Positions 6,889 to 9,748 of a DNA stretch of 64,000 nucleotides are shown piece by piece. The notes under the pieces were generated by a model. The model searched no databases and was not told where the DNA came from. It worked only from the letters and a program-made list of their open reading frames with translations. Location of the stretch: contig SZXW01000001.1 of NCBI GenBank assembly GCA_005862285.1, forward strand, positions 62,001 to 126,000, written 5' to 3'. Numbering within the stretch: position 1 is the first letter of the stretch; each line of letters begins with the position of its first letter. Source of the DNA: Chlorobium sp. (GTDB taxonomy: Bacteria > Bacteroidota > Chlorobiia > Chlorobiales > Chlorobiaceae). Position numbers and translations under genes: made by a program.

Positions 6889-7428
6889 TCAGGCACCTTC
6901 CTGGACAGCTTCCACATAAGGCCATTTACCCTGACGGGAGAGTATCATTTCGACGATTTCCCGAACACATCCGTTTCCGCCTTCATATCCTGAAATATAC
7001 CCCACCCTGTTCCTCAGGTAATCCGTCCCGTTGATGGGAGTGGCGGGAAACCCCGCTTTTTCGAGTACCGCGATATCTCCGACATCATCGCCGATATAGG
7101 CGCACTCTTCGTCTGAAAGTCCATGGGCATCCCTGAAATCCTCATATGCTGAAACCAGGTCTTTCGATCCGAGGTAAAGGTCGGTAACCCCGAGAACCTC
7201 CAGGAGCGGTCGGTAACTTTCAGCATCCCTGTCGGAAACGACTCCGATATGAAGACCGTGTTTAAGCGCCTCCCTGATGGCAACCGCATCCCTGACCGCT
7301 ATGGAACAAAGCTCCTGCCCGCTGCTGTCACGGGTAATCCTTCCACCGTTCAGCACTCCGTCAACAGGGAAGAGAAGCCCTCTTACCATCTTCAGCGCCT
7401 GCTCGACCCTCGATGAAGGATCTGCCAT
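6889..7428 (-). CDS. KdsC-like HAD protein lacking the catalytic Asp nucleophile
   Basis: Homologue of 3-deoxy-D-manno-octulosonate-8-phosphate phosphatase (HAD subfamily IIIA), 179 residues from ATG 7428, which has GGAG upstream; ATG 7440 and TTG 7464 are alternatives. It follows kdsA on the same strand, the expected place. HAD motif I normally reads DxDGVLTDG; here it is P21-V-D23-G-V-L-N-G-G, so the first Asp (the phosphorylated nucleophile) is Pro, encoded at 7366-7368. Other motifs stay: VVSDRD (motif II Ser), the Lys of GSKDL, GDDVGDIAVL (motif IV), and the GGNGCVREI tail. Either the protein is not a phosphatase, or it works by another residue; sequence error is a third option. Confidence 0.85.
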   Translation of the reverse strand: MADPSSRVEQALKMVRGLLFPVDGVLNGGRITRDSSGQELCSIAVRDAVAIREALKHGLHIGVVSDRDAESYRPLLEVLGVTDLYLGSKDLVSAYEDFRDAHGLSDEECAYIGDDVGDIAVLEKAGFPATPINGTDYLRNRVGYISGYEGGNGCVREIVEMILSRQGKWPYVEAVQEGA

Positions 7429-7478
7429 GGAAGGCTCCATGCCGAAATATTGAAAACCTGACAAGATCGTATTATGTT

Positions 7479-8312
7479 TTAAAGTGATTGAAGAGACTGC
7501 ACGCAGCGATATAACTGCAGCAGCTGTTTGACAATGGCACCGAAATCCGCAAGGGCGACCTGGACGGCAGCGTCCGAGAGTGCCTTCGGCGGGTCCGGGT
7601 GAATTTCGAAAAACATCCCGTTCACACCGGCGGCAACAGCCGCTCTGGCAAGAGGCATGAGGTACTGGCGCTCCCCTCCTGAAACGCCATGCCCTGCGCC
7701 CGGCAGCTGAAGGCTGTGCGTCGCGTCATACAGCACAGGATATCCCGTTTCGCCCATCTTCACTATTCCCCTGAAATCGACGACCAGATTGTGGTAACCA
7801 AAACTCGATCCGCGCTCGGTAAGCATCACCCGACGGTTTCCGGTCTGAGCTACCTTTGCCGCCGCAAGGACCATATCCTCGGGAGCCATGAACTGCCCTT
7901 TCTTGATATTGACTGCGAGGCCGCTCTCTCCGGCAGCAACCAGAAGCTCCGTCTGTCTGCAGAGAAAAGCAGGGATCTGCAGCAGATCGACATGACGGGA
8001 TGCAAGTTCGACCTCCTTCGTCTCATGAACATCGGTCGTTACCGGCATTCCGAAGGTCTCGCGAATGGCGGCAAGCACCTCGAGCGCTTCCCTGTCGCCG
8101 ATTCCCGTAAACGAGGCACCGGAAGAACGGTTGGCTTTCCTGTACGAGCCCTTGAAAATGAAAGGAACCCCTTCCTCACGGCTGATACGCTGCAGTTCGG
8201 CGGCAATTTCGAAAGCCATTGCCCTGCTTTCAATGACGCATGGCCCGGCTATCAGAAACGGAACGCTTTCATCAGGAACGCTTACTTGTCCGACCGAGAA
8301 CTTTTGCACCAT
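7479..8312 (-). CDS. kdsA: KDO-8-phosphate synthase
   Basis: Condenses phosphoenolpyruvate with arabinose-5-phosphate to KDO-8-phosphate, the first committed step to the KDO of the LPS core. TIM-barrel DAHP/KDOPS family: [12 protein letters not shown] at 18-29, [33 protein letters not shown], and [12 protein letters not shown]. Cys25 stands where metal-dependent (class II) enzymes have Cys and the metal-independent E. coli type has Asn, so metal dependence is likely. Length 277, normal. Divergent from clpB with 116 bases between; the KdsC-like gene follows downstream. Confidence 0.96.

Positions 8313-8428: not shown

Positions 8429-9748
<1,320 letters not shown>

Follow-up and report, generated by a model that had tools for sequence, protein, structure and literature searches.

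The window, a stretch of 64,000 nucleotides from a Chlorobiaceae genome of 2.61 Mb in 15 contigs, carries kdsA and, directly behind it, a gene for a KdsC-like protein that has Pro at the position of the catalytic nucleophile. The two genes, the residues of the KdsC-like protein on which the analysis turns, and a related gene elsewhere in the same genome are as follows.

7479..8312, minus strand: kdsA, encoding KDO-8-phosphate synthase, immediately upstream of the KdsC-like gene; 373 bits against NF003543 and 348 bits against TIGR01362, both over the cut-off
6889..7464, minus strand: predicted KdsC-like pseudophosphatase gene (pseudo-kdsC), 191 aa, TTG start at 7464; assigned from TIGR01670, the conserved start and N-terminal peptide, and the AlphaFold2 fold
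7366..7368, minus strand: codon CCT, Pro33, at the position of the HAD motif I nucleophile Asp
7360..7362, minus strand: Asp35, the second Asp of motif I
7228..7236, minus strand: motif II region, Ser77-Asp78-Arg79
7156..7158, minus strand: Leu103, in the column of the motif III Lys
7084..7089, minus strand: motif IV, Asp126-Asp127, the Mg site
6958..6981, minus strand: GGNGCVRE tail motif
C13:87836-88351, own genome, beside neuB: KdsC-family paralogue with all catalytic residues

The product of pseudo-kdsC scores 118.8 bits against TIGR01670, the model of the KdsC subfamily (cut-off 106.95), and so belongs to that family, while its 81.8 bits against NF058599, the model of KDN-9-phosphate phosphatases, lie below the cut-off of 180. 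The gene occupies the usual place of kdsC behind kdsA, as the sequence-only reading had noted: the kdsA stop lies at 7479 and the next start at 7464, and the two genes are linked at all Chlorobiaceae loci examined. That reading had placed the start at an ATG at 7428 (giving 6889-7428), which proves to be internal. A comparison of 80 related loci shows TTG (67) or GTG (2) in line with position 7464 at 69 of them, and never ATG where the start aligns (L223-L298); this, together with the conserved N-terminal peptide GFQYFGM, places the true start at the TTG at 7464. A weak TTG or GTG start conserved in this way may have low expression as a consequence. The open reading frame stands alone, with no fusion to a CMP-sugar synthetase. 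The window also carries, at 8429-9748 on the plus strand, the C-terminal half only of ClpB (TIGR03346 model positions 428-852), the N-terminal half (positions 1-429) being encoded by a separate gene at G000:C2:60254-61543. The same split was found in G102, G005 and ES-bin-17, whereas in other classes of the phylum ClpB is encoded by a single full-length frame.

In active HAD enzymes the first Asp of motif I is the nucleophile and the second is the general acid/base, and where the nucleophile is missing the aspartyl-phosphate intermediate cannot form. The substitution of Pro for this first Asp, originally picked out from the letters of the window, was confirmed as a CCT codon in the minus-strand frame LLFPVDGVLNGG. 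With catalytic columns counted against E. coli KdsC, Asp occupies the position in 0 of 69 kdsA-type KdsC orthologues of class Chlorobia and in 23 of 23 KdsCs from Bacteroidota of other classes. Six other residues take its place: Pro in all 39 aligned sequences from the genus of the window; Ser (13), Pro (5) and Ala (1) in the 19 sequences of the Chlorobaculum-type genus; Thr in both sequences of family f2; and Asn (4), Ser (3), Thr (1) and Val (1) in family f3. The kdsA-linked KdsC (L111) of G102, a genome that is probably Chlorobaculum tepidum strain TLS, reads ISLDGV. The result is the same for 80 loci of named organisms, which overlap the 69 orthologues and are not independent of them: Pro at 59, Ser at 11, Asn at 3, Ala at 1 and Thr at 1, with one locus not covered and Asp confined to ES-bin-17 and three outgroup loci. 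A sequencing or assembly error at 7366-7368 is ruled out for practical purposes, since Pro recurs in every one of the genus-level orthologues aligned, and these come from independent assemblies. As judged from the alignments, loss of the nucleophile is a class-wide trait, neither an error nor a peculiarity private to one genome. No paper on a nucleophile-less KdsC in Chlorobia was found in the open-access literature, which counts as weak evidence of novelty.

Other parts of the active site have fared differently. Motifs II, III and IV had all been read as kept, and this stands for the Ser77 of motif II and the Asp126-Asp127 pair of motif IV, but not for motif III, which reads S-K-D-L in the window, with Leu in the Lys column and the visible Lys two residues off. 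The motif III Lys is absent from all Chlorobiaceae orthologues (0/58) and present in the 11 deeper-branching orthologues, i.e. the f2 and f3 sequences, as well as in 23 of 23 sequences from other classes. Motif II reads VSDR in the window protein as against the usual TGR of E. coli KdsC, so that the Ser/Thr position is kept as Ser while the Gly after it has become Asp; many relatives, and mouse CMAS, have SER here, and in 13 of the 19 Chlorobaculum-type sequences the Ser/Thr position has changed to Ala. Measured against an active phosphatase, then, the window protein lacks the motif I Asp and the motif III Lys and retains the motif II Ser/Thr and the motif IV Asp pair. Retention is complete for Asp35 (69/69) and for the Gly-Gly-x-Gly and Arg of the tail (69/69), both of which are invariant also in A1 and A2, and for the pocket-related residues Arg58-Asp59 and Arg79; the first Asp of motif IV is likewise found in 69/69 and the second in 67/69, with Glu replacing it in two sequences. 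The C-terminal part, which bears the tail motif, extends in KdsC tetramers to the active site of the neighbouring subunit. Because the Asp is absent class-wide and the Lys only in Chlorobiaceae, the active site decayed in steps, and the order of loss read from these columns is nucleophile first, Lys later in Chlorobiaceae, and motif II in part of the Chlorobaculum-type genus.

Such stepwise loss of the Asp, then the Lys, then the Thr/Ser in part of Chlorobaculum might be taken as the mark of a pseudogene on its way out, as might the lack of both pseudo-kdsC and kdsA in G110, a near-complete Chlorobaculum-type MAG of 130 contigs in which a gap is possible. Decay of this kind is nonetheless highly improbable and is disfavoured by selection and conservation alike: the frame is open in almost every genome of the class, 29 columns are invariant across that class, and the median pairwise dN/dS is 0.14, as compared with 0.086 for kdsA and 0.105 for the catalytically complete paralogue (NG86, pairs with dS 0.05-1.2; the figures are descriptive, as the shared ancestry of the pairs makes them non-independent). 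The predicted fold is intact as well. An AlphaFold2 monomer model built from 29 sequences (pLDDT 86.8) superposes on KdsC structures with Z 26-27 and an rmsd of about 1.8 A over 164-172 residues, and thus has the KdsC fold, a HAD core with no large cap. The proposition that selection has kept the fold while the nucleophile is gone is upheld by these data, and the gene product is a functional, predicted non-catalytic protein and not the relic of a decaying gene. A contig edge in G110 cuts through the C-terminal half of clpB (C24:3-569), which means that an assembly gap at the locus, rather than a loss, may account for the missing genes there. A somewhat less improbable alternative, yet still a very unlikely one, is that the protein remains a phosphatase by use of another nucleophile, e.g. 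the second Asp of motif I. The invariance of that residue in all 69 orthologues would fit such a role, but the second Asp is established as the acid/base in HAD enzymes, the first position tolerates Pro, Ser, Thr, Asn, Ala and Val alike, and the motif III Lys has also been lost in Chlorobiaceae.

The nearest sequence to the Pro-bearing protein in the PDB is the KDO8P phosphatase of B. thetaiotaomicron (4hgn, E 1.4e-36), and in the KdsC tree the Chlorobia sequences, including that of ES-bin-17, group with 4hgn and the other Bacteroidota KdsCs (99/92). Together, these two results indicate that the pseudo-KdsC descends from a KdsC that possessed the Asp. ES-bin-17 (G276, JACMJS010000094, Chlorobiales bacterium) is a single MAG, 97% complete and in 420 contigs, whose KdsC reads FDLDGVLTDG and retains every motif, the motif III Lys and motif IV included. 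A tree of topA and clpB places it beside family f3 (95/99), although a single clade of the lineages that lost the Asp is not rejected with the same data (AU p 0.123), and its position is unresolved in the KdsC tree and in the ClpB tree. The trees are therefore compatible with one loss of the Asp or with several, and a single clean origin is not settled by them.

Linkage to kdsA might suggest that the protein works on KdsA, and the sequence-only reading had indeed proposed a regulator or structural partner of that enzyme. This proposal was not borne out. In four deeper-branching genomes of family f3 (G133, G284, G075 and G233) the best kdsA match is of a more divergent type and lies away from the kdsC-like gene, and the nucleophile-less KdsC persists. 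That it is kept alongside an unlinked, divergent kdsA disfavours KdsA as an obligate partner, a candidacy that these four genomes weaken. The kdsA genes concerned (L174-L177) are 47-51% identical to that of the window, as against 57-59% in other f3 genomes, which suggests a replacement of kdsA in part of the family.

Since KDO, a sugar of lipopolysaccharide, has been detected chemically in Chlorobaculum tepidum (PMC12285230), KDO-8-P must be dephosphorylated in these bacteria, and some other enzyme must carry out the step. A search of the window's own genome with TIGR01670 returned only two proteins over the cut-off, the product of the window gene and a paralogue beside neuB, with no further KdsC-family phosphatase (next match 19.8 bits). 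A second KdsC-like HAD protein is thus encoded elsewhere in the genome, and by sequence this paralogue is catalytically complete: the D-x-D, T/S, K and GDD elements are present in all 46 copies examined. It was found in 93 of 98 genomes of the class, next to neuB in nearly all; of the five genomes with no strong match, one is ES-bin-17 and the others (G299, G309, G313 and G315) are MAGs that are fragmentary or less complete. Its closest solved relative is the KDN-9-phosphatase BT1713 (3e81, E 1.3e-28), its score against NF058599 (146.2 bits) lies below the cut-off of 180, and it is only about 27% identical to the window protein, to whose gene its own is unlinked. A neuB-like synthase and a complete KdsC-type phosphatase (L002:440-2004) form a near-universal pair in Chlorobia; the NeuB of L002 reaches 249.6 bits against TIGR03569, whose cut-off is 399.65, so that its product is uncertain. 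Alone among near-complete genomes, ES-bin-17 was found to have neither the paralogue nor a convincing neuB (best neuB-family matches about 1e-12); these weak matches coincide with weak kdsA-type matches and are probably DAHP-synthase-like. Among near-complete genomes, an intact KdsC therefore occurs exactly where the paralogue is missing, a contrast that comes from this one MAG. KdsB-family CMP-sugar transferases and WaaA are also present. These observations make the neuB-linked paralogue the candidate for the real KDO-8-P phosphatase, even if it resembles KDN-9-P phosphatases more closely. A nonspecific phosphatase is also possible for this step, because KdsC is reported to be dispensable in E. 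coli and is absent from many other KDO makers (PMC5615194).

Taken as a whole, the evidence is best accommodated, in our estimation with a fair margin over even chances, by a vertically inherited, kdsA-linked KdsC that lost its Asp and was kept as a non-catalytic protein, serving as a scaffold or regulatory subunit in the KDO pathway while the paralogue hydrolyses KDO-8-P. The catalytic Asp, absent from every sampled lineage but one, would have been lost before the present families of Chlorobia diversified; the motif III Lys went later, in Chlorobiaceae, and the second Asp, motif IV and the tail have been retained, with the gene under purifying selection. Given that HAD chemistry depends on the motif I nucleophile, the protein should not be a KDO-8-P phosphatase and should be inactive on that substrate, whose hydrolysis would fall to the neuB-linked paralogue of KDN-9-phosphatase type, perhaps with some contribution from other HAD phosphatases. 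With less certainty, the dead protein may keep the KdsC tetramer and supply an oligomeric scaffold or a ligand-binding regulatory subunit for a KDO-pathway enzyme, with the CMP-KDO synthetase KdsB, KdsA or the active paralogue as candidate partners. By analogy with the inactive KdsC-like C domain of vertebrate CMP-sialic acid synthetase (CMAS), such a scaffold or regulatory subunit in KDO synthesis is the most likely function.

Two other roles deserve consideration. The protein could be a ligand sensor instead of a scaffold, binding KDO-8-P or KDO without turnover and signalling to KdsA, KdsB or another partner. Linkage to kdsA in most lineages fits this, as does the invariance of Asp35, Arg58-Asp59, Arg79, the GGxGxxR tail and, for the most part, Asp126-Asp127. 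Yet the linkage is broken in the four f3 genomes, and loss of the phosphate-contacting motif III Lys in Chlorobiaceae, compounded by the change of the motif II Ser/Thr to Ala in 13 of 19 Chlorobaculum-type sequences, has probably weakened phosphate binding; we thus consider a sensor unlikely, though not implausible. Less probable again are mixed tetramers with the neuB-linked paralogue, in which the tail of the pseudo-KdsC would close the paralogue's active site and confer specificity for KDO-8-P. In favour are the conservation of the KdsC-family tail motif in all 69 orthologues, the presence of both proteins together in nearly all genomes, and the intact KdsC in the one near-complete genome that lacks the paralogue; against are the identity of about 27%, the unlinked genes and the derivation of the genomic contrast from one MAG. 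Extended to the whole class, the same idea would make the dead KdsC an obligatory non-catalytic subunit that gives the neuB-linked phosphatase its KDO-8-P specificity, one enzyme then serving the KDO and the nonulosonic acid branches, a bolder conjecture that we hold to be more doubtful still.

Whichever partner is involved, the Chlorobia gene is, on sequence evidence, a conserved class-wide pseudophosphatase derived from KdsC. Databases will label it a KDO-8-phosphate phosphatase throughout the class, and by its chemistry it should not be one. Within a core pathway of the cell envelope, the class offers a clear view of how a pseudoenzyme evolves, as lineages that lack only the Asp, lineages that lack both Asp and Lys, and one relative with an intact site are all still found. 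It also defines a gap, the enzyme that dephosphorylates KDO-8-P in green sulfur bacteria, for which the neuB-linked paralogue is a concrete candidate.

Comparison with known systems places the protein more exactly. By sequence, tree, fold and kdsA linkage it is an orthologue of KdsC/YrbI (TIGR01670; E. coli 2r8e, B. thetaiotaomicron 4hgn), with which it shares the second Asp, motif IV and the GGxGxxR tail, and from which it differs in the Pro at the nucleophile site, the missing motif III Lys, VSDR in place of TGR, and a longer conserved N-terminus with a TTG start. The KDN-9-phosphate phosphatase BT1713 (3e81; NF058599) belongs to the same KdsC-type subfamily and shares a TGE motif II and GDDxN with the neuB-linked paralogue; BT1713 is catalytically complete, and the window protein is not its orthologue. 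The closest parallel is the C domain of mouse CMAS (3ewi), a KdsC-like domain with Asn at the nucleophile site, the second Asp kept and the SER form of motif II seen in many Chlorobia. The model of the pseudo-KdsC matches it with Z 22.6, and the two have in common a lost nucleophile and a retained fold, predicted in the case of the Chlorobia protein. According to PMC8636478, which cites Oschlies 2009, the mouse domain has no phosphatase activity, and the tetramer that it forms affects the oligomeric state of the synthetase. The CMAS domain is fused to its synthetase, has lost the acids of motif IV (NE for DD) and keeps the Lys, whereas the Chlorobia protein is unfused, retains motif IV and, in Chlorobiaceae, has lost the Lys; the two have separate origins in the tree, where the mouse branch is very long. 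The Chlorobia protein would accordingly represent a free-standing bacterial counterpart of this inactive domain of vertebrate CMAS, the purpose of which is still debated.
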